Origin: a virus
Length of the DNA: 64,000 nucleotides
Virus record (IMG/VR): IMGVR_UViG_3300008259_004660
Coordinates: 120,825 to 184,824 of that record
Strand: one strand, 5' to 3'
Shown here one piece after another: positions 12,801-33,333 of the stretch (within the stretch, counting starts at the first letter, position 1; every line of letters starts with the position of its first letter). The position numbers and the translations under genes are program-made. The notes under the pieces were generated by a model. It was not told the DNA's origin and did not search any database. It saw nothing but the letters and a program-made list of their open reading frames with translations.

Positions 12801-12982
12801 CAGAATTTCTAAACTATCAATATAGCTCATCATATGATGCTACAGGATCTTTCCTTGCGCCTTATATAACCACAGTGGGATTGTATCAAGACAATCAGCT
12901 TGTTGCAGTGGGCAAACTTGGTCGTCCAATCAAGAATTTAATTGATTGGCCAGTAAATATTGTCGTCCGTTTTGATACATAA
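9815..12982 (+). CDS. Tail protein with FG-GAP beta-propeller and dockerin-like pair
   Basis: A 1055-residue virion protein. Residues about 245-720 hold seven FG-GAP-type repeats with the signature (x)FG(x)SV(x)5-7LAVG: HFGEAV.., SFGSSV.., KFGTSV.., NFGYCV.., RFGKSV.., NFAKAV.. and YGYSVSV.., starting near residues 249, 315, 372, 475, 551, 625 and 704. Seven repeats match an integrin-alpha-type propeller. Two EF-hand-like dockerin loops follow: DVNGDGVVDTKD from residue 837 and DIDGNGEINLND from residue 935. These lie inside a C-terminal module shared with the preceding gene, as if inserted. The N-terminal about 25 residues are also shared. Likely a host- or surface-binding component of the baseplate periphery; the Ca2+-binding role is inferred from the loops. 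Confidence 0.75.
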   Translation: MIKQFSAGDITVRPFSTFKNWTVQSIDSSSVDKYGFPTYYNNRCEVNYGIRTSASFFPSESVYWQASIDPINTSGKYARNIWNLTDAMFYKNSSEPTKLFGVEYYTQDPETGKKEIRKIGDRIVTLNLKHNVWGEKIVPNTVRIVDDSNPNNTLYVFDDGYTNLYATGGHFPSAEEIGAVREYLATPYWVTSSGEFYVVFNNGTTQSVDLTNAKQYMAMGQQVIYVEPSSGSWAWDTSTHQDIFQVSNEHFGEAVSTWRNYVAVGSSMDDYSMSEKRIGYASIFKYDENTDSHRLIKKINFPFTQSGATLFKDSFGSSVAIRDNFLAVGSPTGSGCSVDKYPGYVCVYDKNKGGPDHWGIVNLIRGHSDGDKFGTSVAVDNDILAVGAPGYSGSIGAVYVFRKKRYMDAEYPCQNINTGSYWKQVTSVEEFCKEMATSSYYATQSYVPTFVSGNYTWEHETTLTSSVGAVGDNFGYCVSVDMNQLIAGTNKTGAGYATLFTCSYSSASVDACPTASWYQIQRFYGDSTTGDLDITKPEYSVDVTSTISSNRFGKSVSISNKNLVIGCQYDKAYIPYYGYTGSAAILGAAYFYHYGYVAECLSNQFHLVTKTFGNRDYLTDNNFAKAVSVDGTTAAVSSLPDTLARTVEFSGSYILENYSYASTGSNDEVLGRVLIYNYDYTGNKWNKTGELRRNKEKNHPYNIYGYSVSVSSDFLAVGGPLVNIITGSSYSSSINESSQSLYMPSTYSGSAYLYDLRKYEQNPHIGNVFYKNGYFVITNTGSNYTNMLMGTGSRGFELDYRGTHTIFEHEYLVSVRPGEFNYSTNPSALAQYPMVFDVNGDGVVDTKDVDLVMRYLRMKKFYAEFVYDVDGLILEQDTLTDYSWWANDLLQTEAEDVLQQESSYAASMTTSSFDAFTKTAYDYIEKNLDKTGILDIDGNGEINLNDGYLFALYVLQQLNPTSIAPYLDANSTRQYVVDIQKYLDKYCGVDTKSTNPEFLNYQYSSSYDATGSFLAPYITTVGLYQDNQLVAVGKLGRPIKNLIDWPVNIVVRFDT
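12323..12700 (+). other. Dockerin-like EF-hand pair coding segment
   Basis: Two segments about 98 codons apart each carry a 12-residue Ca2+-loop pattern (D-x-N-x-D-G-x-x-D and D-x-D-x-N-G-x-I-N) followed by a hydrophobic helix ('VDLVMRYL' and 'GYLFALYVL'), the layout of type I dockerins, although the linker is longer than usual. The segment interrupts the C-terminal module that is contiguous in the gene at 8651-9772. Confidence 0.6.
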
Positions 12983-15412: not shown

Positions 15413-18400
15413 ATGGTAGATACATACGAAACACTTGATATAGGCTTGGACAAAGTTGATTATGTTGTTCATGTCTCAGACATTCACATTCGCTTGACCA
15501 AACGCCATGAGGAATATCGTGAGGCATTTGCCAAACTATATAAGGAAATTGAAAATACACCAAAGAACACGGTTATCATAAACACGGGTGATACATTGCA
15601 CAGCAAGGTTGATTTGTCACCTGAAGCTGTTCAACTTACCAGTGAATTGTTTCATAATTTGGCAAATCTTCGTCCTACCATTGTTATTGCGGGAAATCAT
15701 GACTGTCTTCTTACCAATGTTACACGTTTGGACAGCATTTCTCCTATCATTGATAATCTAAAACATAAAAATCTGTTTTATATCAAAGGTACAAAATTGT
15801 TTGGCGCGGGAAATCTTCTCATCAACAACATGAGTGTGTTTGATGATCCTACCAAGTACATTCGAATGAAGAATGTGGTGAAGAAGATCAAGACAGCATT
15901 CGATACCAAGGTTGCGCTATATCATGGATCTGTGTTTAGCGCGATGACTGATGTTGGATATGAGGTTACTGACAAAACCGTATCAAACGAGTTGTTTGAT
16001 GGTCATGACATAGCGATGCTTGGTGATATTCATATGGCGCAAAATTTACAGCAATATGATGCCTCTAATGAAAAACCTATCATACGATATGCGGGATCTT
16101 TCATTCAACAAAATCACGGTGAAGCATTAAGTGGCCACGGATTTTCATTATGGGATATTAAAAACAGAGCATATAAGCATATTGAAATACCAAATGATTA
16201 TGGATATTTTACCATTGATATTGACGATGGTAAGTTGATCACAGACATAAGCGGTTTGCCAAGTAAGCCAAAGATGCGTGTAAGATGCAAAGAAACGATT
16301 GCATCGGAAGTGAAAAAGGTGATAAATGAGATCAAAAAGAACCACGAAATCACTGATATCATTTATATGCGAGTGGAAAGTGATGACGCCACCAAGGTTG
16401 CAAAAAAGCAAGCATCTGCCAATCTCACACAGATTACAAATCTTGATTATCAGAACAAACTGATGTCGGAATGTCTTAAGGTCAAATATCCTGAAATCAT
16501 GGACGATGAAACTCTTGAGACTGTATACAAAATTAACAAGGATCTTAATTCATCATTGGACGATGACGATGTTTCAAAGAATATCAGATGGAAGCCAGTT
16601 AAGTTTGAATTCAGTAATATGTTCAGTTATGGCGAGGACAATGTAGTTGATTTCACCAAGCTTGATGATGTATACGGATTGTTCGCGTCGAATGCCAGTG
16701 GTAAATCTTCCTTGATGGATGCATTATGCTTTACAGTATTTGACAAGAGTGCCAGAGCATTCAAGGCAGTACATGTTCTTAATTCGCAAAAAATGAGTTT
16801 TAGCGGAAAATTCACTTTTGAAATCAATGATATGCAGTATGTCATTGAACGAAAAGGTTCACGTGACAAGAAAAATAATGTGAAAGTTGATGTAAACTTT
16901 TATAAGATTGAAAAGAATGAAAAGATAAGCTTGAACAGCGAAGCTCGCCGCAGTACCAATGAAATCATCAGAGATTATTTGGGAGATTATGATGATTTTG
17001 TTCTTACCACACTTGCTCTACAGGGAAATCAAGGATCTTTCATTGATATGGGTCAAACAGAGCGCAAAGAACTTCTATCACAGTTCATTGGATTGAATGT
17101 GTTTGATAAGCTTGCTGCCAGTGCCAATGACAAGATCAAGGAACTTACTGGTGCCATCAAAACTTTCAACAAGGAAAACAATCAGTCAAAAATTGAAGGA
17201 ATGAAAACTGAGGTTGGATTATTGGAATCTAAACTAATTGATTTGAACGAGCAAAAGGAAAAGCACAGTGATGAATATGTGAAAATAAACGAGAAGATAA
17301 ATACCGAGCAATCCAAACTTGTTAAGTTAGATAATGTTCCAACCAATGTTGCCACCTTGAAAAAAGAAAAGGAGACGTTGGAAATAAAAATCAAACAAGC
17401 AGTTGAAAGTGTTTCAAACATAGACAAAGAAATTCAGACAAAGAAAAAAGAATATGATGAAATTATCAGTAAACTAAACGAATTTCCATCGGACTTGAAA
17501 GAAAAAGCAGATAAACATGCCAGTTTGAATAGAAACAAGCAGCGGATTGAGCAAGAGATGGAAAAACTGAAACTGGTTGTCAAGGAGAAGCTCAATAAAC
17601 TTGATCATCTATCAAAGCATGAGTATGATCCAAATTGCAAATACTGCTGTAATAATGCATTTGTCAAGGATGCTATGGCTGCAAAAAACAGTCTCAATGA
17701 TGACAAAGAGGAAGCAAGAAAACTGTCAGTTTCATTGGCTGAAATAAAATCGCAGATAGAAGAACTTGAACAGTTTGTATCACAATATCAAAATAGTTCA
17801 TCTCTGAAAGATCGTTCAAATATTCTGTCGTCATTTATTTCCAAAAAGGAACTCGAAAAAGCAACACTAAGCAATTTATTGGACAAGAGTAAAAACAGAT
17901 CAACTGAAATTGAAAACCAAATTGAAATTTATGAACGCTCAAAAGAGATCATAGAAAACAATAAAGTTATTCTTTCTGTAATAACAGAATTAAAGTCAAC
18001 TAGTAGCGATCTATCGTCCAAGCTCAAGAGCATTGAAAAGTCTCATGTTGATGCATACAGTCGAAAAGTATCAGTGTCTGATCAAATCAAAAACATCGAA
18101 GAGCAGATAAAGAAAATAGAAGATTATGAGAATGAAGTGGCCTCATATCAATATTACATTGCTGCGATTGGAAAGGACGGTGTACCATATCGCATCATAT
18201 CAGACGCAATTCCAAAAATTGAACAAGAAGTAAACAATATATTGTCACACATTGTTGAATTCACTATGGAAATGGAAACAGATGGTAAGAATGTGAATGT
18301 GTATATCAAATATGATGATCGTAAATGGCCGCTTGAACTTTGTTCTGGTATGGAAAAGTTTGTGGCTGGTTTAGCACTTCGTGTTGCACTAATCAACATC

Positions 18401-18619
18401 AGTAATCTTCCAAGACCAAATTTCCTTGTGGTAGATGAAGGATTTAGTGCATTGGATGCATCAAATATGCCAATGGTTCATGCATTGTTTGATTATTTGA
18501 AGACCAATTTTGACTTCATTGTTGTAATAAGTCATCTTGATGCCATGAGAGATATGGTCAATAAACAGCTTGAGATCAGGAAGGAAAACGGGTTCAGTAA
18601 GATAGATAACACGGTTTAA
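15413..18619 (+). CDS. Fused gp47-gp46 (Mre11/SbcD-Rad50/SbcC-like) recombination nuclease
   Basis: A 1068-residue protein joining two normally separate subunits. Residues about 15-280 are a metallophosphoesterase: 'VVHVSDIHIRL', 'INTGDTLHSKVD', 'VIAGNHDCL', 'ALYHGSVF' and 'MLGDIHMAQ' supply the metal ligands. The Rad50-type ATPase begins near 395: Walker A 425-432 reads A-S-N-A-S-G-K-S (the usual first Gly is Ala), long coiled coils surround a zinc hook C742-x2-C745, and the C-terminal lobe has the ABC signature (CSGMEKF, 977-983) and Walker B 'FLVVDEGFSALD' (1004-1015). In T4, gp46/gp47 resect DNA ends for recombination-dependent replication. No frameshift is needed: one open frame spans both parts. 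Confidence 0.9.
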   Translation: MVDTYETLDIGLDKVDYVVHVSDIHIRLTKRHEEYREAFAKLYKEIENTPKNTVIINTGDTLHSKVDLSPEAVQLTSELFHNLANLRPTIVIAGNHDCLLTNVTRLDSISPIIDNLKHKNLFYIKGTKLFGAGNLLINNMSVFDDPTKYIRMKNVVKKIKTAFDTKVALYHGSVFSAMTDVGYEVTDKTVSNELFDGHDIAMLGDIHMAQNLQQYDASNEKPIIRYAGSFIQQNHGEALSGHGFSLWDIKNRAYKHIEIPNDYGYFTIDIDDGKLITDISGLPSKPKMRVRCKETIASEVKKVINEIKKNHEITDIIYMRVESDDATKVAKKQASANLTQITNLDYQNKLMSECLKVKYPEIMDDETLETVYKINKDLNSSLDDDDVSKNIRWKPVKFEFSNMFSYGEDNVVDFTKLDDVYGLFASNASGKSSLMDALCFTVFDKSARAFKAVHVLNSQKMSFSGKFTFEINDMQYVIERKGSRDKKNNVKVDVNFYKIEKNEKISLNSEARRSTNEIIRDYLGDYDDFVLTTLALQGNQGSFIDMGQTERKELLSQFIGLNVFDKLAASANDKIKELTGAIKTFNKENNQSKIEGMKTEVGLLESKLIDLNEQKEKHSDEYVKINEKINTEQSKLVKLDNVPTNVATLKKEKETLEIKIKQAVESVSNIDKEIQTKKKEYDEIISKLNEFPSDLKEKADKHASLNRNKQRIEQEMEKLKLVVKEKLNKLDHLSKHEYDPNCKYCCNNAFVKDAMAAKNSLNDDKEEARKLSVSLAEIKSQIEELEQFVSQYQNSSSLKDRSNILSSFISKKELEKATLSNLLDKSKNRSTEIENQIEIYERSKEIIENNKVILSVITELKSTSSDLSSKLKSIEKSHVDAYSRKVSVSDQIKNIEEQIKKIEDYENEVASYQYYIAAIGKDGVPYRIISDAIPKIEQEVNNILSHIVEFTMEMETDGKNVNVYIKYDDRKWPLELCSGMEKFVAGLALRVALINISNLPRPNFLVVDEGFSALDASNMPMVHALFDYLKTNFDFIVVISHLDAMRDMVNKQLEIRKENGFSKIDNTV

Positions 18620-20806: not shown

Positions 20807-22735
20807 ATGAAAATAGTTTATATTTCTCCACACCTTTCAACGGGCGGATGTCCACAGTTTCTATTGAAGAAAATTCAAATGTTACATATGGACCACGAGG
20901 TGCATTGTATCGAATATAATGATCATGGGTGTTTTACTGTTCAAAAGAATCAGATCAAAGAAATTCTTGGTGATAGACTTTACAGAGTAAATGATCGCAA
21001 GGAGGAATTGCTGGAAATTATTGATAGAGTTCAGCCAGATGTGGTTCATTTGGAAGAAATGCCAGAATATTTCATGGACAAGAGTATTGCGATGAAATTG
21101 TATAGCAAGGATCGAAAATATAAACTCATTGAAACATCCCATGACAGCAGCTTTGATCCAAAAAACAAAGGATTTTTTCCAGATAGATTTATATTCGTCA
21201 GTAAGTTTCAGGAAGAAACCATGAAAGTTTTGGGTATTCCAAGTGAAGTTTGTGAATATCCTATTGTTATTATTCCAAGAAAGCCGCGTGAAGAAGCACT
21301 GAAAGTATTGGGGCAAGATCCAAAGAAAAAACATGTAGTTCACGTTGGGTTATTTACTCCAAGAAAAAATCAGGCCGAGATCATTGATTATGCCAAGTCT
21401 CTGATCAATTATCCAATACAATTTCACTTTGTAGGAAATCAAGCTGAAAATTTCAGATTCTATTGGGAACCGTTGATGAAAAATTTTCCAAAGAATTGCA
21501 CTTGGTGGAATGAAAGAAAAGATGTTGGCAATTTTTACCAAATGGCAGATCTATTTCTATTTCCATCAAAGGATGGTATTGGAGACAAAGAGACAAGTCC
21601 ATTGGTGATACGAGAAGCAATATCATATAACATTCCCACACTTATATACAATTCTCCTGTTTATATGGGAATGTATGATAAGTTTGATGCTGTGGAATAT
21701 TTGGATCAAAATAGCAAAGATAACAACGCGAAGAAAATATTGGAAATGCTCAGTATTGATTTGAATGATATTGTTCCGATTGAAGCAGAAAAGGACGAAG
21801 ATATCAAGATTGATTATGATCGCGCAGACAATAAGATAAATGTCTCCAGTCGTATCCAAATTGAAAATGCCCTACTATCAATTAAAGAGTTGGATAGCAA
21901 GCAAGTATTATATGCAGCGCCATACAACCCATTACACAAAGATATCAAGTATTGGATTATTCCTGTGCCCAAGGGGTTCATGGATTTTGAAACAGATAAA
22001 TACTTTGGTGGTATATTGGTTGAATTGTACAGCAATGATAAGCTCATATACACCAAGGAATTCAGAATCAAGTATCCAGATGTACTAAAACCTTCTGTGG
22101 TGTTAAAGAACAACACATCGCCTTCATACAGCAATTATATGGAATTTTTTGTACACAAGATATATGATCGTTATCTTGCCAACAAGAAATTTGACACCGT
22201 GGTTGATGTTGGTGCCAATATCGGATTATGGTCCGAATATATCAGACGCTCGTCAACTTGCCAAAAGATATACGCGGTCGAGCCTAATATCCAAGCATTG
22301 GAGATATTGACCAACTCTTTTACAAACAATGAATTTATTATTGTGGACAAAGCTCTTACAGATAAAGATGGCGAGTTGGAATTCTTCGTAGACAACAACA
22401 ATTCCACAATTGGCGCAACAACAAAACAGGGAAGTCTTCAAAACTCATACAAAGTAAAAGCGGTGTCGTTCAAGACATTCCTAAAAGAGAATGACATCAA
22501 ACATATTGACTTGTTCAAAATGGATATTGAAGGTGGTGAATATTCATTCTTTGAAAGCATGCAGAGCGAAGATTTGAACAAGATTTCCAACCTTATGATT
22601 GAATTTCATCTTGGAAACGGAAGAACGATGGAAAAAGATGTCGCGATTCTTGAAGCACTTTTCAGAGGTGCTGGGTTCAAGAGCTTTATTTCAAAGGAAC
22701 ATGACTTGGGTGGATTTATCTTTGCAACCAAATGA
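20807..22735 (+). CDS. Glycosyltransferase (GT4-like) fused to FkbM methyltransferase
   Basis: A 642-residue bifunctional protein. The N-terminal 300 residues are a GT-B glycosyltransferase: 'MKIVYISPHLSTGGCPQF', 'HVGLFTPRKNQAEII' near 178 and the donor-binding 'SPLVIREAISYNIPTLIYN' near 264. A beta-rich linker of about 100 residues follows (about 325-440). The C-terminus is an FkbM-type methyltransferase, with 'VVDVGANIGLWSEY' (D467 and G469 in the SAM loop), 'IYAVEPNIQALEIL' and 'LFKMDIEGGEYSFFE' near 570. It would transfer a sugar and O-methylate a glycan. It opens a six-gene, same-strand glycan module with gaps of 3-5 bases. Confidence 0.8.
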   Translation: MKIVYISPHLSTGGCPQFLLKKIQMLHMDHEVHCIEYNDHGCFTVQKNQIKEILGDRLYRVNDRKEELLEIIDRVQPDVVHLEEMPEYFMDKSIAMKLYSKDRKYKLIETSHDSSFDPKNKGFFPDRFIFVSKFQEETMKVLGIPSEVCEYPIVIIPRKPREEALKVLGQDPKKKHVVHVGLFTPRKNQAEIIDYAKSLINYPIQFHFVGNQAENFRFYWEPLMKNFPKNCTWWNERKDVGNFYQMADLFLFPSKDGIGDKETSPLVIREAISYNIPTLIYNSPVYMGMYDKFDAVEYLDQNSKDNNAKKILEMLSIDLNDIVPIEAEKDEDIKIDYDRADNKINVSSRIQIENALLSIKELDSKQVLYAAPYNPLHKDIKYWIIPVPKGFMDFETDKYFGGILVELYSNDKLIYTKEFRIKYPDVLKPSVVLKNNTSPSYSNYMEFFVHKIYDRYLANKKFDTVVDVGANIGLWSEYIRRSSTCQKIYAVEPNIQALEILTNSFTNNEFIIVDKALTDKDGELEFFVDNNNSTIGATTKQGSLQNSYKVKAVSFKTFLKENDIKHIDLFKMDIEGGEYSFFESMQSEDLNKISNLMIEFHLGNGRTMEKDVAILEALFRGAGFKSFISKEHDLGGFIFATK

Positions 22736-22738
22736 TGT

Positions 22739-23386
22739 ATGGAATGGTCTGAAATTACAACAACATACCTTTCTGGGCTTGTAGGTGGAATAGATGGTGT
22801 ATTTCACGCGGGTGCTCATGATGGTGAAGAAATAACCGAGTATGTCAAATGCGGCATAAATAACATTGTTTGGGTCGAAGCCAATTACAGAACACTCAAT
22901 AAGCTGATAAACACCACATCAAAGTATGGAAGAAACCAATTTTGGTATTCACATTGCCTATCCGATGTTGATGATCAGATCAATGTGTTCAACATATCCA
23001 ACAACGATGAAAGTTCTTCCATGCTTGATTTTGGAAAAGATCATAAAGAGCTTATGTCTCATATCGTATATGTTAGCAAACAATATATGCTTACCAAGCG
23101 AATTGACACATTAGTCAAAGAACAAAAAGATTTTGATTGGAACAGCATCAATTATTTGGTAACAGATTGCCAAGGATGTGATTTGAAGGTGTTGAAAGGA
23201 TGTGGAAATTTGCTTGCTTCTCCAAATTTGAAAATAATCAAAAGTGAAGTTGATGTGAAAGAAATGTATCGTGGTGGATCAACGGAAAAAGAAATTGGAA
23301 ATCACTTATCTCAGTTTGGTTTTGAGCTTAGATTTTGGTTCAATGCAAATGGTGGTTGGGGCGAACGTTATTGGTTCAGAAATTAA
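22739..23386 (+). CDS. FkbM family methyltransferase
   Basis: A 215-residue SAM-dependent methyltransferase. The glycine loop is 'GVFHAGAHDGEE' (about 20-31), followed by 'IVWVEANYRTLNKL', where the Glu would bind the SAM ribose, and the FkbM-characteristic 'YLVTDCQGCDLKVLKGCG' near 139-156, in place of the D-I-E-G-x-E of the fused copy upstream. The family O-methylates sugars. The gene begins three bases after the preceding stop. It is the second FkbM-type domain in a row, so at least two positions on the glycan may be methylated. Confidence 0.75.
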   Translation: MEWSEITTTYLSGLVGGIDGVFHAGAHDGEEITEYVKCGINNIVWVEANYRTLNKLINTTSKYGRNQFWYSHCLSDVDDQINVFNISNNDESSSMLDFGKDHKELMSHIVYVSKQYMLTKRIDTLVKEQKDFDWNSINYLVTDCQGCDLKVLKGCGNLLASPNLKIIKSEVDVKEMYRGGSTEKEIGNHLSQFGFELRFWFNANGGWGERYWFRN

Positions 23387-23388
23387 TT

Positions 23389-24699
23389 ATGGACGAAAAT
23401 ACATTCATAGACATATGGAATGAGTGCTGTGAGTTCAATATTGAACAGAAGCCAGAGGAATATAGGCAGTTACTTGAACTGTTGGAATTAAAATGTAAAA
23501 AAGGAGCAGTGTTGGAAATAGGTTCCAACTATGGCGGAACTACGGTTGGATTTTGCAGAATGTTCAACAAAGTTATAACCATTGACATAAAACACGATCC
23601 AAACTTTGACAAGTTAAAATCCAAGTATTCTGGATATCAGTATGTGTTGGGAGACTCCAAGAGTAATGACATGTTGGAGTATATCAAGAGTCTTGGCATC
23701 AAGTTTGATTTTATCTTCATAGATGGCGATCATTCATATGAAGGCGTGAAAAACGATTATGAAAAATACAAGCAGTTTCTTGCTCATGATGGTTATATGG
23801 CATTTCATGACATTGTGTATAGCCAAGAAAACGAAGCAAATAATTGCAGAGTAGATAAGCTATGGAATGAATTTGATTCGTATGGTTTGGAAAAGTATAT
23901 GTTTATTTCGTCGGCAAAAACTCATTCTTATCGTACAGACCAACTATTCTACACATTTGTCAACAATCGACCATATTCATCATGGGGAGGAATTGGTGTA
24001 TTAAAGAACACTCCTGTAGCTGTGTTCTGTCACAATTATTTGGCAAATGGATGGATTGATATTGTGCAAAGTCAATTGAGCAAATTGATCAATTCTGGAT
24101 TGTATAAGAGAGCGGACAAAATTGTATATGGAGTATTGCCAACAGATGAAATGTCTTATTCTGCATTCTTGGCTATGATAAGACTTAGGGATGTTGACAA
24201 GAAAATTGAAATATATCGTTACAGCAAAAACATGTATGAATATCCTACGCTCATACATCTTCAGAATTATTGTGCCAATAATCCAAACGCGCATGTTTTG
24301 TATTATCATGCCAAAGGTACTTCACGCAAGTATGATACCAACATAGAATCTTGGCGCGAATGTCTTGAGTATTTCAATATAGAATTGTGGAGAAAGGCTG
24401 TGAATGATCTTAATATTGGCAACCATGATGTATGTGGAGCATTGTATGTTACTTGGTTTGCTTTCTTGGACAAAGTGTTTACAAACTATTATTCTGGTAA
24501 TTTTTGGTGGTCTAGTGCAAAATATATAAACACATTGCCAAACTTGTCCGCCAAAATGATTGAATCAAAAATGGATAGAGATGTGCCAGAAAGATGGATT
24601 GGGTATGGAGCACATAGATGGGCAAACTATTATAACGAAAATGTGTCATCTTGGTATGAACATTATTTCGATCCCAATATTTATAGACAGGTAAAATAA
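23389..24699 (+). CDS. Class I methyltransferase fused to a glycosyltransferase-like domain
   Basis: About 436 residues. I chose the ATG at 23389, two bases after the previous stop, rather than an in-frame ATG at 23335 that would overlap it by 50 bases. The N-terminal 200 residues form a Methyltransf_24-type domain: 'GAVLEIGSNYGGTTVGF' (39-55), 'VITIDIKHD' and 'FDFIFIDGDHSYEGV' near 105-119. The C-terminal 230 residues (from 'VAVFCHNYLANGWIDIV') include 'HVLYYHAKGTSRKYD', 'YYSGNFWWSSAKYI' and 'PERWIGYGAHRW', a pattern I associate with sugar-transferase-like proteins of glycan clusters but cannot place in a named family. No RBS is evident. Confidence 0.65.
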   Translation: MDENTFIDIWNECCEFNIEQKPEEYRQLLELLELKCKKGAVLEIGSNYGGTTVGFCRMFNKVITIDIKHDPNFDKLKSKYSGYQYVLGDSKSNDMLEYIKSLGIKFDFIFIDGDHSYEGVKNDYEKYKQFLAHDGYMAFHDIVYSQENEANNCRVDKLWNEFDSYGLEKYMFISSAKTHSYRTDQLFYTFVNNRPYSSWGGIGVLKNTPVAVFCHNYLANGWIDIVQSQLSKLINSGLYKRADKIVYGVLPTDEMSYSAFLAMIRLRDVDKKIEIYRYSKNMYEYPTLIHLQNYCANNPNAHVLYYHAKGTSRKYDTNIESWRECLEYFNIELWRKAVNDLNIGNHDVCGALYVTWFAFLDKVFTNYYSGNFWWSSAKYINTLPNLSAKMIESKMDRDVPERWIGYGAHRWANYYNENVSSWYEHYFDPNIYRQVK

Positions 24700-24702
24700 G
24701 TT

Positions 24703-25500
24703 ATGTACAAAGGTAAAAAGGTTATACTCACAACCACAGCGTGCAGACGCCCACAATTGCTGTATATGGCAATCAAGAGTTTTGGAGTATTTTGTACAGA
24801 CAAAGATGTTATAGATGAAATTTATTACTTGGACGATTCATCATCTCAAGAAGATCGTAATTTTGCCATAGAAACATATACAAAGTTTATTGGCAAACCT
24901 GTTATATTCAGATTTGTTGAGCGCGAAACATTTCCAGACAATTATAGACATGCCAGAATGCTCAATATCTGGAGAGAATGTGTTATTGAATCGAAAGCCG
25001 ATTATGTGTTTCATCTTGAAGATGATCATCGCATGTATAACATGCTTACTATAGGCCAGCCTATTGATATCATGCAAAAATATCCAGAATATGCATACAT
25101 CGGATATTGTCACAGTTGGAAACATTTTCCAAAAGGCATGGAGCCAAAAAGAGTAATTGGGGATTTTTGGGAAACTGTATATTTTGATGATCGTCCAATA
25201 AATGATCACTTGTTTATGGATGACGCTATGGCTATGCAGACTGGTCCAGAATGGTGGATGTATTATATAAATTGGCCATATTTTTCATTGAGGCCGGGCG
25301 TGCATGATGCAAAAAAACTTTTATCGGTGGGAGAATTTTCAACGACATATGACCGCGAAAAAATGAGTGTAGAACTTGAATTCGCCATCCGTTGGAAAGA
25401 TATGGGTTATAAAAGCATGATGAGCAAGAATTTTACTTCACTTCATACTGGACAAAGTCCCGAACTTAGTGCATATAAGTTGAACGCATCTGCCAGATAA
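24703..25500 (+). CDS. GT-A type glycosyltransferase
   Basis: A 265-residue glycosyltransferase of the GT-A fold, GT2-like. The nucleotide-sugar region is 'KVILTTTACRRPQLLYMAI' near the N-terminus, followed by 'IYYLDDSSSQED' near 41-52 and the metal-binding 'YVFHLEDDHRMYN' near 102-114. The C-terminal part has 'PEWWMYYINWPYFSLRPG', likely acceptor-site aromatic residues. Nothing indicates membrane attachment. It begins three bases after the preceding stop. Confidence 0.7.
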   Translation: MYKGKKVILTTTACRRPQLLYMAIKSFGVFCTDKDVIDEIYYLDDSSSQEDRNFAIETYTKFIGKPVIFRFVERETFPDNYRHARMLNIWRECVIESKADYVFHLEDDHRMYNMLTIGQPIDIMQKYPEYAYIGYCHSWKHFPKGMEPKRVIGDFWETVYFDDRPINDHLFMDDAMAMQTGPEWWMYYINWPYFSLRPGVHDAKKLLSVGEFSTTYDREKMSVELEFAIRWKDMGYKSMMSKNFTSLHTGQSPELSAYKLNASAR

Positions 25501-25502
25501 AC

Positions 25503-27275
25503 ATGAGCAAACCAATCAGACTAACTGTTATAATTCCTTGTTACAACTTTGAAAAGTATGTAACACAAGCTATCGATTCTGTGTTGAATCAGAATGTGAA
25601 CTTTGGTATTGAAGTATTGATTGTGGATGATAATTCTACTGATAATACTTTCAACATCATAAATCAAAAATATGGATCAAACAATTTGGTGAAGATACAT
25701 CAGTCTCCAAAAAATCAAGGAATAACAAAGAATCTCAAGGACATGATGGATAAGGCGCTGGGCCAGTATCTGTATACAATGGACGGCGATGATTTCATCA
25801 TTGATATGAATTATCTTCAACGTGCGGTTGATTTTTTGGATAATAATCCAAAATATTCATTGGTATGTTCTGGCTACAAACTTTTATACAACGATGGAAC
25901 GATGTATCCCACAGAGGACGATCCTGCCGTATGGTCTGCTCCACGTGAAGACATATATCTCAATGATTTGCTCTCGGTGAATTATATTTCATTTGGCAGA
26001 GTATTTCGTAATTACAAGAATATCATAAAGCCTTGGATGCACGATGAACTGCATGAAGATTGGACTATCAATGCGGAAATATTGAAGAACGGCCCAGCCA
26101 GATGTGACAAGAATTATACAGGAATTTACAGAATAACAAAAGCTGGTCGCATAACTTCCATGAGCGAAGGACAGGTACACGAGAAGAACAGAAAAACTAT
26201 TGCCGCCATAAAGAGCAATCTTACACTGAAAACAATATCAATTGTTGATTCATTTGTACACAATGAAAATGTTAAAGTTAAGCTTGAGAGATGCATTAAA
26301 TTTTTGAAAGAGGATGGGCATGAAATTTTGCTGGTGTCCAATACTCCTGTGGATAAGCATATTATACAAGATGTAAAATTTTTCATGTATGATAGCAGAA
26401 ATCAACTATTCAAGCAGGAATATGAGACAAAAAACACAGTTGATTTTTGGCGTGCATTGAATGGTAATTTGGAAGTACATGATATTGTTACCGCAGTGCA
26501 AAAGCACGGTCTCAGTGTTCTTATCAATCTATTCAATGCACTACATTATGCAAAACAACAGGGATATACACATTTTCAAAGATTTGAAGTCGATGATTTG
26601 TTTGGTGAAAAATCAAGATCTTGGATCAAGCGAGTTCCAACATATGTACTTGAAGAAGATAAACGAGGATTGATATATTACAATTATGAGAATTCTCCTT
26701 CTGATATTTCGTTTCACTATTTCTTCTGTGAGATAGATTATTTTCTAAAGAAGATAAGCCGCATAACTTGTGAGGAAGATTATGTGAAGTATCTGCATGA
26801 CTATTATGGTAACAAGGAATTCAAGATTGTAGAAGTATTCATGTATGATCAATTAAAGAAGAATGGCGACAAGGAAATATTACAGAAGACTGGAAGAGAA
26901 ATGAAGATTGATTTTTTCGACACGAAATGGAACACAGAAACTTCCGTAAGTAATTTTGAAACAACATTCTTTGGCTGCACCACCAAGGTGTATGAAGCTA
27001 GAAATTGGAATTCTGTGGCCAGAGAGTTCAATAAGAGGGACGATTATGTGTTGGTAACATATTCATACAATGATACACCTATAAAACGCATAATTGATGT
27101 TGAAAAACATGATGGTACCAGAGAAACAATCGAGCAGTCTGTACATGCAGCTGGTAGTTGGGTATGGCATGTTCTGTCGCCAAATTCAAAAGCAGTTTCA
27201 GTTTATCAAGACGGTAATCTATTATACAATCAACAAATAAAAAATCTTGAATCTTGGGCTGGATTCAGAAGCTAA
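25503..27275 (+). CDS. GT2 glycosyltransferase with second GT-A-like domain
   Basis: A 590-residue protein. Residues 1-240 are a standard family 2 transferase: 'TVIIPCYNFEKYVTQAIDS', 'VLIVDDNSTDNTF' near 39-51, 'YLYTMDGDDFI' near 90-100 and 'HDELHEDWTI' near 180. From about 245 there is another domain with its own 'SIVDSFVHNENVKVKLERC', 'EILLVSNTPVDKHII' and 'HFQRFEVDDLFG' near 356-367, which looks like a second, divergent GT-A fold. The C-terminal 100 residues are beta-rich. A tandem arrangement suggests processive or two-sugar addition. It starts two bases after the upstream stop. Confidence 0.75.
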   Translation: MSKPIRLTVIIPCYNFEKYVTQAIDSVLNQNVNFGIEVLIVDDNSTDNTFNIINQKYGSNNLVKIHQSPKNQGITKNLKDMMDKALGQYLYTMDGDDFIIDMNYLQRAVDFLDNNPKYSLVCSGYKLLYNDGTMYPTEDDPAVWSAPREDIYLNDLLSVNYISFGRVFRNYKNIIKPWMHDELHEDWTINAEILKNGPARCDKNYTGIYRITKAGRITSMSEGQVHEKNRKTIAAIKSNLTLKTISIVDSFVHNENVKVKLERCIKFLKEDGHEILLVSNTPVDKHIIQDVKFFMYDSRNQLFKQEYETKNTVDFWRALNGNLEVHDIVTAVQKHGLSVLINLFNALHYAKQQGYTHFQRFEVDDLFGEKSRSWIKRVPTYVLEEDKRGLIYYNYENSPSDISFHYFFCEIDYFLKKISRITCEEDYVKYLHDYYGNKEFKIVEVFMYDQLKKNGDKEILQKTGREMKIDFFDTKWNTETSVSNFETTFFGCTTKVYEARNWNSVAREFNKRDDYVLVTYSYNDTPIKRIIDVEKHDGTRETIEQSVHAAGSWVWHVLSPNSKAVSVYQDGNLLYNQQIKNLESWAGFRS

Positions 27276-27279
27276 CAAT

Positions 27280-29403
27280 ATGAAAGTAATTAATGTAAAT
27301 CCGGGCATACTTCCCATTCCACCAAATGGATGGGGCGCAATCGAAAAAATCATATGGGATTATCATCTCCAACTGCAAAAAATTGGAGTACACAGTGAGA
27401 TAAAATACCTTAACGAAATCGAATATGACGATAGCACAATTGTACACGTACATGTGGCAAATTTGGCTAACATGTTTCACGAGAAAGGTGTACCTTATAT
27501 TTTTACTATCCATGACCATCATGCATATGTTTATGGAAAAGATTCTCCAGTATTCAAAGAAAACTTAAAAGCCATAGAAAACAGTGTATTTTCATTATCA
27601 CCATGCAAATATTTGCTTCCATATTTTGGTAGCAAAAAACTAAGATATTTTAGTCATGCTGTAAATACCGATGTTTTTACATTCAATAATCGTCATAGAC
27701 ACAATCCACTGAAATTGCTTTGTGTAGCTAATAATGGATATGCATATAACCAAAGTGTGGATAGAAAGGGATTTGGAATTGCAATACAAGCAGCAAAAGA
27801 ATTAGGTCTTCCAATCACAATTGCTGGGCCAAAAAATAATGACAACTTTTTCAAGACCCTTGACCCAGAACTAAACAACTATTCCAAGCTAACAAAACTG
27901 TATGATTTGGATGAAAAATGGTTGGTAAATTTGTACAACGAAAACGATCTGTTCCTTCATTTCTCTGAATTGGAAGCTGGACATCCGAATCTAACATTAT
28001 TGGAAGCAATGGCGTGTGGTCTTCCGGTTGTTGGAACTTTTGAGGAAAAAGAGTATGATGGCATGGTAGTTTCCGAAAGAAAATTTGAAAATGCCATAGA
28101 ATCAATTAAATATGCTGATCAAAATTATGATTTATTGAGAAATCATGCATTAAGCAATGCAAATAAAAATTCATACGCTAACAGAGTACATGGTTTGGTC
28201 AAACTATACAGTGAATATAGAGAGCGTATTTTCAGCAAGCAACTTGAAGTTGCATACAGTAACACCAAGATAACATATACTGAAGCGAAAAATAGAATCA
28301 AAGTAACATTTGATGACGGTGCAAAAGTTGATATATCTGGTGCAGTTCAGAAAAAATACAGAGTAAAATTCATAGATGGTCTTACCAACATGGTTGTATA
28401 TCAAACTGATATATACAACAACATGTGGGCCACTACAAATACCAAGTACTACAACAAGTGGTTGGTAGAAGTGTTTGATATCACCGACGGCATTGAAGTG
28501 TTGGAATATTCCGAGGCAATGGATCTAAAGAATCGCACAGTAAAAGTTGTATTCGACAGTGAAAGTTTGGGAGATATTCTTGCGTGGATCGGCGCCGTCG
28601 ATGAATTTCAAAATAAACATCAATGCAAGATGTATTGTGTGATATTCAACAAGTACTTGCGTGCTTTACTTGAAAAAAATTATTCAAACATAAAATTTTT
28701 GGCTGTTGATGTTTACGCCGAAGAATATTATGCAAAGTATAAGATAGGATGTTTTGATTCAAATGGATATCATCCATATATTCCAAAGGATCCGCGCACA
28801 TTGAATTTGTGTTCAATTGCAAATTGTATTTTAGGTTTAACAGATGTTGAACATAAACCAAAGCTGAATATTGACAGAAAGAAATACAGTAAAAATAAGA
28901 AATATGTATGTATTGCTGTGCAAAGTACATGTCAGGCAAAATACTGGAACAATAAGAATGGTTGGAACAATGTGGTCAAATATCTTAAATCTCAAGGATA
29001 TGAAGTATGGTGTATAGACAGATTCAACAGCTTTGGCACCAAAGATAATATGAATTATATACCAGACGGTTGCATTGATAAGACCGGAGACTTTCCGTTG
29101 GAAGAACGCATGGCTCAGTTGGCTGGTGCAAAATTTTTCATTGGACTAAGTTCTGGTCTTTCGTGGGTGGCGTGGGCGGTAGGTGTGCCAGTTGTAATGA
29201 TTAGTGGATTTACAAAGGCATATAATGAGTTCTATACGCCGCATCGTATCATAAATGAAAATGTATGCAATGGCTGTTGGAACGACGTTAATGTGAAGTT
29301 TGACCGCTCTGATTGGTTATGGTGTCCATATAACAAGAACTTTGAATGTTCTACTCAAATATCTGTGGATAGAGTGCTGTCTGAAGTTAAAAAGTTGATA
29401 TAA
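27280..29403 (+). CDS. GT4 glycosyltransferase fused to TibC/BAHT-type O-heptosyltransferase domain
   Basis: About 707 residues. The ATG at 27280 is preferred over 27247, which overlaps the previous gene. Residues 1-320 are a GT4-type transferase ('INVNPGILPIPPNGWG', 'AGHPNLTLLEAMACGLPVVG' near 235). From about 325 to the end it matches the autotransporter heptosyltransferase (Aah/TibC, BAHT) family: a beta domain, 'SLGDILAWIGAVDEF', 'VCIAVQSTCQAKYWNN' near 540, 'FFIGLSSGLSWVAWAVGVP' and the iron-binding cysteines C663-x2-C666, C682 and C690. BAHT enzymes put heptose on Ser residues of adhesin repeats. In a phage, the obvious candidates are the Gly-Ser-Thr fibres at 53-64 kb. The gene closes the glycan module. 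Confidence 0.85.
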   Translation: MKVINVNPGILPIPPNGWGAIEKIIWDYHLQLQKIGVHSEIKYLNEIEYDDSTIVHVHVANLANMFHEKGVPYIFTIHDHHAYVYGKDSPVFKENLKAIENSVFSLSPCKYLLPYFGSKKLRYFSHAVNTDVFTFNNRHRHNPLKLLCVANNGYAYNQSVDRKGFGIAIQAAKELGLPITIAGPKNNDNFFKTLDPELNNYSKLTKLYDLDEKWLVNLYNENDLFLHFSELEAGHPNLTLLEAMACGLPVVGTFEEKEYDGMVVSERKFENAIESIKYADQNYDLLRNHALSNANKNSYANRVHGLVKLYSEYRERIFSKQLEVAYSNTKITYTEAKNRIKVTFDDGAKVDISGAVQKKYRVKFIDGLTNMVVYQTDIYNNMWATTNTKYYNKWLVEVFDITDGIEVLEYSEAMDLKNRTVKVVFDSESLGDILAWIGAVDEFQNKHQCKMYCVIFNKYLRALLEKNYSNIKFLAVDVYAEEYYAKYKIGCFDSNGYHPYIPKDPRTLNLCSIANCILGLTDVEHKPKLNIDRKKYSKNKKYVCIAVQSTCQAKYWNNKNGWNNVVKYLKSQGYEVWCIDRFNSFGTKDNMNYIPDGCIDKTGDFPLEERMAQLAGAKFFIGLSSGLSWVAWAVGVPVVMISGFTKAYNEFYTPHRIINENVCNGCWNDVNVKFDRSDWLWCPYNKNFECSTQISVDRVLSEVKKLI

Positions 29404-29430: not shown

Positions 29431-32400
29431 ATGGACATTTCTATAACCAATCTCAAAAAGTATGTTTTTGAGCCTAAGACAGAGTCTTTGCGACTAAAGC
29501 GTGCCAATGAGATATTGGGGCAGGGAATGATTGCTACGGAAAAAGTGGATGGCACAAAACTTACTCTTGTTCGTACTAATCAGACTGATCCGAATGATTA
29601 TACCAAGAATTGGGTTGTAGCATATAAGGGAACTGTATTATATCCAAAAGAGTTTGCATACCTTACTCCACAGGGAAAAAAAGATATATCTCAATCATCT
29701 GTTGGTATAGGCCAATATGCTTTGATTTTTGATCATTTGGAAAAAATCAATAACAAGATTGCTAGTATTCCAAAAAGCACGGAGTTCAGTGTTGAATTTG
29801 CGCAGAACAAGGATACTCTCACAAGAACATATGTTCAGAAAGGTGGAATGTTCTTAAGAAGTTATGGTGAGGTGTCATATCGTATTGTTGGTGGTGGGTT
29901 GAATACTGTTCCGAAACAAGAGATCACAGACTATACCAACGTAAAAAGAATGGCAGATCTTTTGGAAATTAGCGCGTTTCCTATTTTCTTTCAGGGCAAA
30001 ATAACAAGAGAAAATGTAGCAAAATATCCATCAATTGCGCCAAAAATGATGAGCGCCGATTGGAATAATCCATTGGATGTGTTAACCAAGTTTTCTGATG
30101 CTATGCTGTCTATACCATCTACTCTTGGTGGTACAACGGAGGGCGTGGTACTGAAACTTGATAATGGAAGCTTTTACAAAATTGTTCAAGCTGACCAATA
30201 TAGCTCTGATGTAAGAGGTGCTAAGAAAGATTTGTATAAACTTGAGCCAGAAGCGGCCACATCATATTTCCAACAGATCAGAGCACTTATTCAAAAAGTA
30301 TTTGATACCATTGGCACGGATGGAAAGACAGAAGAAGATATCATATCCGACACAAACTTTTACATTGCCAAAAATGAAAAAAGCTTGGCTAAATTTTTTG
30401 ATGCATTGCAGAAGATTGCTGGAAACAAAAAGAACCTCGTACAGATCAAGGATGATATTCACGACACTGTTCGTCTTATGACTTCAAAGCAGGAACTCCT
30501 TGGGTCAAAAACAAAATCAATCGCGCTTCTTCCTATTGCTGGCAAACCACTACACATTGGACATTGGAAACTGATTGAAAAGGCGGCAAATGAAAATGAT
30601 AATGTTGTGGTCTATACATCAACAACCGACCGTGTGCGTAAAGGAGAATTTCCGATATATGGCGATGATTTTGTGCAGATATGGAGTGATATGCTCATTC
30701 CATCATTGCCAAAGAATGTAAAAGTGAAATTTGTTGATTCTCCATTAAGATCTGTCATGCATGAACTTGGATGGTTTGAACAAAGACTTACTCAAGACGC
30801 TGCAAATGTACCAGTCATTAATCTATATTCAGACAAAGAGGATATTGAAACAAATTTCAAGCAAGAAGATCTGAACAAGTATCCAGAATTATTGAAAGCT
30901 GGAAAGATCAATAAAGTTGGCGTAGAAAGAACAAGTACGGTCAATGTCAGCGGCACAAAGATGAGAGAATTCTTGCAGAACAATGACAAGGACTCCTTCA
31001 TGAAATATTTACCTCCTATATCAACCAAGGATAAAGAACAAATATGGAATATTCTTTCATCTCGCAGACCAAGTGATCTTGCTGAAATAAATCCATACGC
31101 TGTATTGGCTGAAAAACTGATTAATGAAGTTGCAAATGAAATATTGAATGAAGGCGGATGGAGAAATCCAGAGACACAAGAATGGGAAGTTACACCAAAG
31201 ATGGTGGCAAAGATCGTGGAAGACACTAACAAATTTTTGAATGATTTCAATGCATGGTCTGGATTATCCAAGTTGTCAACCAAAGGTCCGACAGGAAGTG
31301 GAAAATATTACAAGAACGACTTGAATGATCCAAGTATAACTTATGGAGATATTGATATTCAACTTGTATTGCCCGTTGAAAGCAATGAAAGAAAAAATCA
31401 ATTAGAAGCCAATAAAATTTTTGGAGACAAGATCCGTGAGTTCATAAAGACCAAAAAACCAAGCTATATTCACGACGCAACAAATGATCCAGATTTTGGA
31501 ATTGGATACTTGATATTCAATGTGGATGGTAAAAAAGTTCAAGTTGATCTTGTACTATCATATACTGTTTCAGCTGATTGGACGAGTGTAAGAACAACGC
31601 CAGAAAAAGGATTGAAGGGATTTGTCACAGGAATGATGTTAAGTGCATTGAGTGACACATTGAATGTTGTTCTTGGGTCAAGCACCAATCCGTATATCAA
31701 CACTGTTGATGGAAAGGTTGTATCATCCTCAATCAAGAAAGATGCTGTGCAAAAATTCCTAAAGCCAAATGAAGTATTTGCCGAGATTGTACGATTTTAT
31801 GGTGAAATGGCGGACATTGAAAACCCAGACTTATCTTTATTGGTTGGTTATATGGGCCTTGATGCCAACGACCCTTCATTAAAAAAGAAATGCCAAACCG
31901 TGGTTGCTTTGGCAAATACACTTGAAAAGAATGGAATATTTGACGCTGGAGTCATAACCTCCAAGGATGGTATAACAATCAAAAGCAGAAAACAATTTGT
32001 TGATCGCGTAAGAACCACATACATCGATATGATGCAGCGAGCAAAAACAGCCAAAAAACTTGAAAAAGCACAAACACCAAGCGCCATGAGAACAATAGAA
32101 AAAATAAAAAATCATGCTGATCTGGGAATACAGATGGCAAACGAACTTATCAAAGAACATTATACACTTCTGATGGAATCTGGTAAATCCATAGCCGCCG
32201 TGGACCCAAAAACGCCAAAGATGGTAAATGGTCAGCCAGCACAGGCAACAACCAAATTAAGAATTGTTGATCCGCAGGGCAAGGATGTGCATTCAGCAGT
32301 GTCAAAGGACATCAAGGAACTTGTGTATGTATTGAATGCCAAGGTCGGTTTTTGGAAAAAGAATAATCCGTACATTGAAAATGGATTTATATTCAATGGT

Positions 32401-33333
32401 AGTTCACAATTTCTAATGGATCCAAACAAGTTTGGTGTGTTGAGCAAATACAAAGATTCTTTTGGTGACATAGATGTTATCATTCCAAAATCAAAATTGG
32501 ATGCTTTGACATCATTTTTGGACAGCATTGATGACAATAAAGCTGATTGGAATCCGACAACTCAAAACAGATTGTCTAGTAAGTTTTATTATGTTGGACG
32601 CACGAAGAGTTATGCATCCATTCCAGATCAACTTGTAACACTTTGGTATTATGATCCAATGAAGCAAGTTGTTCAAGTGGACTTTGAAGGTGATGAAATG
32701 TTTCTTGATCCGCAAGGATATGAAAAGCCAAGCGAGTGGACAAAATTCAGCAAAGATTCTCCGTGGGAAGATTTGACCGTAGGTATCAAGGGATTGGCTG
32801 GGGCATTAATGCTTCGCTCATTAGCAAGAGCAACAACAGTATTACCAAATGCAGTTGTGTTGACGCCGGGCGCAGTCAAGAAAGTTCAGTCTGGTGCAGT
32901 CAAGGAACTTACCGATAAGGAAGTTACTAAAGCAGCACAGCACAGTATTCCATCTGCATACACATTAAATACTGGCGGTGGTGGTACTGGTATACGTAAG
33001 GCATACGAATTAGTAAAGACAATGCCATATAATGGGAAGATGGTTGATGCATATAGATTTGTGGAAGCCAAAGAAACAAAACCAGAAGACAGAATCACGG
33101 ATGTTGGCAGAATATTTGAAATATTGTTCAAAAAGAAAGCATCGCCTGAAGAAAGAGCTGAATTTCGCAGCTATCAGGGACTGTTAAGACTAATGAAGAA
33201 ATATTTGGACAAGAAAACCATCGACATTGCTATGAATAGATTCACGGAAGTTTTGGCTGGCGAAGGTTTAAATCCAAAGGAATATGCTTCTGTGCAAAAG
33301 GCTACGAAAGATATTCTTGGATTGTCTATATAA
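29431..33333 (+). CDS. Four-module ligase-like / HIGH / double pol-beta nucleotidyltransferase protein
   Basis: A 1300-residue protein with four nucleotidyl-transfer signatures in one frame. (1) Residues 1-270: nucleic-acid-ligase-like adenylation domain, motif I K38-V-D-G, 'STEFSVEFA' near 110-120, motif IV 'GTTEGVVLKL' near 232-241 and 'FYKIVQ' (motif V). (2) About 360-540: NMNAT/cytidylyltransferase-like domain with H375-I-G-H378 in 'PIAGKPLHIGHWKLI' and a late 'TSTVNVSGTKMREFL', like the (I/V)S(G/S)TxxR element of that superfamily. (3) About 605-760: pol-beta-type signature G622-S-G-K, D640-x-D642 and D706. (4) About 980-1100: G990-S-S, D1013-x-D1015 and D1084. I know no characterised protein with this order. 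RNA or nucleotide repair, or a nucleotide-based counter-defence, are possible roles; the function is unknown. Confidence 0.75.
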   Translation: MDISITNLKKYVFEPKTESLRLKRANEILGQGMIATEKVDGTKLTLVRTNQTDPNDYTKNWVVAYKGTVLYPKEFAYLTPQGKKDISQSSVGIGQYALIFDHLEKINNKIASIPKSTEFSVEFAQNKDTLTRTYVQKGGMFLRSYGEVSYRIVGGGLNTVPKQEITDYTNVKRMADLLEISAFPIFFQGKITRENVAKYPSIAPKMMSADWNNPLDVLTKFSDAMLSIPSTLGGTTEGVVLKLDNGSFYKIVQADQYSSDVRGAKKDLYKLEPEAATSYFQQIRALIQKVFDTIGTDGKTEEDIISDTNFYIAKNEKSLAKFFDALQKIAGNKKNLVQIKDDIHDTVRLMTSKQELLGSKTKSIALLPIAGKPLHIGHWKLIEKAANENDNVVVYTSTTDRVRKGEFPIYGDDFVQIWSDMLIPSLPKNVKVKFVDSPLRSVMHELGWFEQRLTQDAANVPVINLYSDKEDIETNFKQEDLNKYPELLKAGKINKVGVERTSTVNVSGTKMREFLQNNDKDSFMKYLPPISTKDKEQIWNILSSRRPSDLAEINPYAVLAEKLINEVANEILNEGGWRNPETQEWEVTPKMVAKIVEDTNKFLNDFNAWSGLSKLSTKGPTGSGKYYKNDLNDPSITYGDIDIQLVLPVESNERKNQLEANKIFGDKIREFIKTKKPSYIHDATNDPDFGIGYLIFNVDGKKVQVDLVLSYTVSADWTSVRTTPEKGLKGFVTGMMLSALSDTLNVVLGSSTNPYINTVDGKVVSSSIKKDAVQKFLKPNEVFAEIVRFYGEMADIENPDLSLLVGYMGLDANDPSLKKKCQTVVALANTLEKNGIFDAGVITSKDGITIKSRKQFVDRVRTTYIDMMQRAKTAKKLEKAQTPSAMRTIEKIKNHADLGIQMANELIKEHYTLLMESGKSIAAVDPKTPKMVNGQPAQATTKLRIVDPQGKDVHSAVSKDIKELVYVLNAKVGFWKKNNPYIENGFIFNGSSQFLMDPNKFGVLSKYKDSFGDIDVIIPKSKLDALTSFLDSIDDNKADWNPTTQNRLSSKFYYVGRTKSYASIPDQLVTLWYYDPMKQVVQVDFEGDEMFLDPQGYEKPSEWTKFSKDSPWEDLTVGIKGLAGALMLRSLARATTVLPNAVVLTPGAVKKVQSGAVKELTDKEVTKAAQHSIPSAYTLNTGGGGTGIRKAYELVKTMPYNGKMVDAYRFVEAKETKPEDRITDVGRIFEILFKKKASPEERAEFRSYQGLLRLMKKYLDKKTIDIAMNRFTEVLAGEGLNPKEYASVQKATKDILGLSI

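Follow-up and report, generated by a model that had tools for sequence, protein, structure and literature searches.

A phage enzyme that joins a GT4-type glycosyltransferase to a BAHT domain of the TibC/Aah type probably modifies a protein of its own virion. We propose that the BAHT half would start an O-glycan on a collagen-like fiber built largely of G-[S/T]-S triplets, and that the fused GT4 half and a neighboring cassette of glycan genes would elaborate this glycan. Both the enzyme and the fiber are encoded in the window, i.e., the whole stretch of DNA analyzed, which covers the last 64,000 bases of a virus record 184,824 bases long (Table 1).

Table 1. Features of the window discussed in the text
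Feature	Positions	Strand	Basis or remark
GT4-FkbM methyltransferase fusion	20807-22735	+	Pfam Glycos_transf_1, Methyltransf_21; TIGR01444
FkbM-type methyltransferase	22739-23386	+	PF05050, E 5e-10
Methyltransf_24 domain and C-terminal half without family	23386-24699	+	PF13578, E 4e-14; start approximate, from 437-aa match in G002
Probable GT-A-type glycosyltransferase	24703-25500	+	DDSS and LEDDH motifs, no profile match; inferred from sequence
GT2 glycosyltransferase, long C-terminal extension	25503-27275	+	PF00535, E 3e-25
GT4-BAHT fusion ORF	27280-29403	+	ATG start, 707 aa
N-terminal GT4-type glycosyltransferase domain (residues 1-319)	27280-28236	+	Pfam Glycos_transf_1, BshA superposition
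C-terminal BAHT (TibC/Aah) domain: beta-barrel, GT-B core, iron finger	28273-29400	+	TIGR04414, 4rap
Collagen-like fiber protein, proposed substrate	53018-63241	+	Translation; 3407 aa, after gp15-like gene
G-[S/T]-S block 1, 163 triplets	53816-55282	+	
G-[S/T]-S block 2, 159 triplets	55856-57286	+	
G-[S/T]-S block 3, 115 triplets	57827-58861	+	
G-[S/T]-S block 4, 77 triplets	60416-61108	+	
G-[S/T]-S block 5, 82 triplets	61802-62539	+	

The fused enzyme and its catalytic residues

Profile, structure and residue comparisons place the ORF firmly in the BAHT family. Residues 332-706 match the NCBIfam model TIGR04414 (autotransporter strand-loop-strand O-heptosyltransferase; curated cutoff, 200 bits) with 377.6 bits (E = 6e-113), and a PDB search returned TibC (4rap) as the closest solved structure by sequence (E = 5e-78). 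The AlphaFold model of the fusion, built from an alignment of 28 phage sequences, has a pLDDT of 88; its BAHT half superposes on TibC over 362 residues (Z = 42.6; rmsd, 2.3 A), and its GT4 half on the GT4 enzyme BshA over 297 residues (Z = 26.5). Pfam Glycos_transf_1 matches residues 160-253 above its cutoff, and K163, E232, and E242 of the GT4 half, i.e., the basic residue and the paired Glu motif, are invariant or nearly so in relatives. The initial annotation, made from the letters alone, had recognized a phage-borne TibC/BAHT domain fused to a GT4 domain, and its reading of both domains holds; the two BAHT motifs and four cysteines on which it relied are present exactly.

Mapping onto TibC (residue numbering from PMC4358343) showed that all five published active-site residues are kept (D110=D432, T226=T550, K230=K554, R286=R610, and W305=W629) and that the iron finger is complete, with C663, C666, C682, and C690 in place of TibC cysteines 339, 342, 358, and 370. 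At position 300 (TibC numbering) the phage enzyme has Ser, the same as Aah, which takes both ADP-heptose epimers (PMC4358343). The beta-barrel ahead of the GT-B core is represented by strands at residues 339-413 of the model, and the TibC superposition starts at residue 337; Pfam TibC_1st matches the fusion below its cutoff (19.2 versus 27). BAHTs of this type have a beta-hairpin thumb, hydrophobic at its tip, and assemble into a dodecameric ring. Two strands of the model (residues 584-593) may correspond to the thumb, the tip of which reads D589/N590 in the phage enzyme and F265/V266 in TibC, a position that also varies among bacterial BAHTs.

Phage and bacterial BAHTs

A scan of IMG/VR retrieved 77 viral loci with relatives of the enzyme. 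Among 37 phage representatives, whose BAHT domains are less than 75% identical to one another, Glycos_transf_1 is found in 34 and GT9 in 35, and six also carry FkbM in the same polypeptide as BAHT. D110, K230, W305, and the iron-finger cysteines are invariant in all 37, as are the cysteines in 95 bacterial sequences. One reading of the gene is that it came in as a passenger on a carbohydrate island and is inactive, and the source of the studied genome is indeed metagenomic sequence only; the catalytic residues and the cysteines, however, do not vary among 37 divergent phage proteins, which points to selection, and the reading frame is intact in most of the 77 viral loci, which makes a passenger gene highly improbable.

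Judged from their ORFs and profile matches, phage BAHTs are nearly all GT4 fusions and bacterial ones are free-standing. The bacterial set comes from a genome scan with an alignment query, from which the best 80 of 476 relatives were analyzed (a single-protein query gave no matches), and 94 of its 95 BAHT ORFs lack a long N-terminal domain. In a tree of 133 sequences, made by a quick method without bootstrap and with a bacterial sample consisting of the sequences closest to the query, the phage BAHTs are set apart by a branch that has full SH-aLRT support. Tandem BAHT domains or genes occur in phages (L073, L062, and L428) and in bacteria (L526, L530, and L558) too, and one phage BAHT fusion contains an intein splicing domain with a LAGLIDADG match.

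BAHTs are known as virulence enzymes decorating bacterial adhesins. An autotransporter gene often lies beside the BAHT gene (PMC4358343), and all six of the large proteins tested beside bacterial BAHTs, our positive control, proved to be strand-loop-strand AIDA-type autotransporters. The strand-loop-strand repeat TIGR04415 had no match in any of 39 BAHT phage records, the studied phage included, in agreement with the initial annotation, which had seen no autotransporter in this DNA. This absence makes an autotransporter substrate less likely and leaves the enzyme family unaffected; a phage-borne autotransporter was thus set aside as the substrate.

A collagen-like fiber travels with the enzyme

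The fiber protein contains 596 triplets in five blocks, with Gly in register in 589 of them, and only 29 prolines in its whole length. Profile searches gave no Pfam match for its non-repeat parts; Pfam Collagen (PF01391) matches comparable fibers of other phages (L429, L432, and L435). In Microcystis phage Mel-JY01 and in six further loci (L063, L064, L068, L074, L076, and L077), G-x-S repeats lie a few kilobases from the BAHT gene. An annotated minus-strand gene of Mel-JY01 (PP395634.1, 739-2298; L087) overlaps plus-strand G-x-S repeats, and this repeat-protein stretch seems to be misannotated.

One test of the association started from contigs picked by their repeats. Forty-four viral contigs were picked solely by a G-[ST]-[ST] DNA pattern, as the first part of a scan rather than a random draw, and a Gly-Pro-X pattern served likewise to pick 33 control contigs. 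TIGR04414 was found in 20 of the 44 (19 above the cutoff) and in none of the 33 (Fisher p = 1.9e-6), with some of the 44 holding trivial repeats only and the control possibly sampling other phage groups. The G-[S/T]-S repeat was absent from all 33 controls. When the comparison was restricted, by a cut chosen after seeing the data, to contigs no shorter than 60 kb and, for the G-x-S set, with at least 50 G-x-S triplets in the locus read, BAHT was present in 15 of 19 G-x-S contigs versus 0 of 17 controls (p = 7e-7).

Records picked by their BAHT or capsid gene gave a similar picture: the strict repeat pattern occurs in 23 of 31 BAHT-positive records versus 1 of 14 BAHT-negative capsid relatives (p = 4e-5, a value that is too small because several of these records are near-copies). 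Most of the eight BAHT-positive records without the strict repeat stop before the place that the fiber has in the studied genome, to judge from coordinates, and in one of the eight (G025) the triplets read G-[S/T]-[N/S]. Within contigs, the repeat lies at most 10 kb from the BAHT gene in 12 of 17 that were fully read, where 4.8 would be expected at random (p = 3.5e-4); late genes and glycosyltransferases cluster anyway, so this linkage is inflated. The distance in the studied genome is 24 kb, and the enzyme and fiber genes are therefore not one operon.

These associations could also arise if the enzyme and the G-x-S fiber were simply common traits of one group of large aquatic phages, the true target being DNA or some different protein of the virion or phage. 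It is chiefly in large environmental contigs that both traits occur, and several G-x-S phages have no BAHT, even in contigs as long as 148 kb (G061) and 69 kb (G087), so the fiber can exist without the enzyme. A cassette search in such BAHT-negative phages gave weak matches only (G075 and G061); hence, the fiber is not always accompanied by such a cassette. We nevertheless consider co-occurrence of this kind an unlikely explanation. In the parts read, two BAHT-negative relatives with capsid proteins 77-78% identical show no cassette, BAHT, or G-x-S blocks, although a homologue of the non-repeat fiber sequence is kept in one of them, so that enzyme and fiber repeats are missing together in capsid-matched phages. 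Mere co-occurrence would not lead one to expect linkage within contigs, the BAHT domains compared are divergent, and in fold and active site the enzyme matches a protein O-glycosyltransferase. DNA is among the acceptors of phage glycosyltransferases, according to work cited in PMC12619734; DNA glycosylation by this enzyme was rejected, its support going no further than phages in general having such enzymes.

In bacteria, the neighbor of a BAHT indicates its substrate, and the phages carry the G-[S/T]-S fiber instead, which marks the fiber as a likely target. The initial annotation had named the phage's own repetitive proteins and a host adhesin as alternatives, and the comparative evidence favors the former, the enzyme traveling with the fiber in many divergent phages. 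Thus, on comparative grounds, the phage's own G-[S/T]-S fiber rather than a bacterial adhesin is a well-supported and likely target.

Host O-antigen is the acceptor of some phage glycosyltransferases. The enzyme might accordingly modify the surface of the host, be it LPS, O-antigen, or an adhesin, for instance to block superinfection, and the PHROG matches of the GT2 protein of the cassette, which are labeled GtrB-like, would suit such a role, as would the fact that known BAHT substrates are bacterial surface adhesins (PMC4358343). Association and linkage point, however, to the phage's own fiber; neither profile matches nor the model hint at a membrane or secretion partner, and the phage has T4-like structural genes, whereas conversion of this sort generally benefits a lysogenic phage. 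Modification of the host surface is, in our judgment, decidedly unlikely.

A proposed route of fiber glycosylation

For the donor sugar, the acceptor residue, the order of sugars, and the benefit to the virion, we infer the following. Across fibers, triplet position 2 is freely Ser or Thr, and position 3 is Ser in ~80% and Thr in 3%. Of these two residues, TibC glycosylates Ser only (PMC4358343), and this preference together with the bias at position 3 fits Ser at that position as the acceptor. The near-constant Ser at the third triplet position would therefore be the most likely acceptor on sequence grounds, with the caveat that BAHT-negative fibers have a similar triplet bias, which makes the bias alone weak evidence.

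ADP-heptose is our best guess for the donor of the studied enzyme. Profile searches with the ADP-heptose genes tested found none in the phage record; synthesis of ADP-heptose by the phage itself was thus rejected, and the donor would come from the host. Weak adenylyltransferase-type matches below the cutoff were seen in 6 of 47 records. A contig with both BAHT and a G-x-S fiber (G071) encodes a GmhA-like sedoheptulose-7-phosphate isomerase (G071:C1:64359-64814, L459; 180 bits against a cutoff of 209); the GmhA step is the first toward ADP-heptose. Arg286 of TibC contacts the adenine of the donor. It is present in all 95 bacterial sequences and in the studied enzyme, and it is replaced by Thr, Val, Leu, or Ile in 17 of the 37 phage BAHTs, so that a different nucleotide-sugar donor is possible in many phage relatives. 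The label O-heptosyltransferase given in the initial annotation stands for the family; heptose itself is a tentative assignment, given the lack of the tested ADP-heptose genes and the replacement of Arg286 in those 17 phage relatives. The known substrates of BAHTs fold as beta-helices, and the substrate contacts of the iron finger may for this reason not carry over to a collagen-like chain.

In the proposed route, the BAHT half would place the first sugar, probably heptose from host ADP-heptose, onto fiber serines before or during assembly of the fiber trimer in the infected cell, and the fused GT4 half would add the next sugar. The cassette at 20807-27275, directly upstream of the fusion gene, would then extend and O-methylate the glycan through its GT4-FkbM, FkbM, second methyltransferase, probable GT-A, and GT2 proteins. 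The decorated fiber would be built into the virion, bearing many short methylated glycans, which may stiffen a presumed triple helix poor in proline and shield the fiber or tune adhesion. Since proline is scarce in the fiber, sugar may take over the stabilizing role of proline in the collagen-like helix, which is speculation on our part. More tentatively, and as a generalization that we rate somewhat below probable, GT4-BAHT proteins may constitute a widespread phage system for glycosylating fiber serines in which dense glycans replace proline or hydroxyproline; the substrate of BAHT would have changed from a beta-helix to a collagen-type chain, and its donor possibly too where Arg286 is replaced.

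Relation to known glycosylation systems

TibC and Aah (PMC4358343; PDB 4rap and 4rb4) share with the phage enzyme the beta-barrel, the GT-B core, the active-site residues, and the four cysteines. Unlike them, the phage BAHT stands behind a GT4 domain, is phage encoded, has neither a strand-loop-strand autotransporter nor a hydrophobic thumb tip, and is associated with a collagen-like fiber. In Clostridioides difficile, sgtA lies immediately upstream of bclA3, and SgtA O-glycosylates the Gly-Pro-Thr repeats of BclA3 (PMC7157674). The SgtA-BclA3 pair resembles our proposal in that a glycosyltransferase is paired with a collagen-like surface protein and O-glycosylates hydroxy residues of Gly-X-Y triplets; by analogy, SgtA would be a close functional precedent. 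SgtA differs in being a GT-A-type enzyme that uses UDP-GlcNAc and acts mainly on Thr in GPT triplets, on a bacterial spore and not on a virion.

Other systems share single elements with the proposed one. The collagen-like tail fibers of E. coli prophages form Gly-X-Y triple helices like the one proposed, but they are proline rich and owe their stability to proline, and the accessible part of that report describes no paired glycosyltransferase (PMC3368898). Virion glycosylation in mycobacteriophages is likewise phage encoded (Freeman et al. 2023, cited in PMC12619734); as described in the citing paper, it affects the C termini of capsid and tail tube proteins, not a collagen-like fiber (PMC12619734). 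In Mimivirus, too, a viral enzyme acts on collagen-type chains, this one, by the accessible portion of its description, being a galactosylhydroxylysyl glucosyltransferase of a giant eukaryotic virus (PMC9546862).

The BAHT family is known; the GT4 fusion and the inferred collagen-like target are new. In a literature search of partial coverage, we found no description of a phage BAHT or of its pairing with a collagen-like fiber. A UniProt record entitled "Glycosyltransferase Aah/TibC [uncultured Caudovirales phage]" shows that the family name has already been given to a phage protein. If true, our proposal would reveal a new way in which large environmental phages glycosylate their virions, suggest a role for G-[S/T]-S repeat proteins of no known purpose, provide a testable idea on how a proline-poor collagen-like helix is stabilized, and supply candidate enzymes for glycosylating repetitive serine peptides.

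The phage and other large proteins of the window

The portal, major capsid protein, and large terminase of the phage are of the T4 type. When capsid and terminase are compared, the named phages nearest to it are Microcystis phage Mel-JY01 and Flavobacterium phage immuto (capsid identity, 56-58%). By these genes, the phage is T4-like and related to immuto, and a Bacteroidota host is plausible.

In T4, the metallophosphatase and the ATPase are the products of separate genes, 47 and 46; the ORF at 15413-18619 unites Mre11-like metallophosphatase and SMC/Rad50-like ATPase domains. The 1300-aa protein at 29431-33333 shows, by weak matches, an RNA-ligase-like N terminus, a HIGH-type nucleotidyltransferase stretch, and two GDID-type nucleotidyltransferase motifs and is possibly a composite protein of RNA repair or nucleotide metabolism. 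Two further large proteins, one with FG-GAP repeats and a dockerin match (9815-12982) and one with DUF6242/EPTP propeller-type matches (48371-50347), are perhaps adhesins or fibers.
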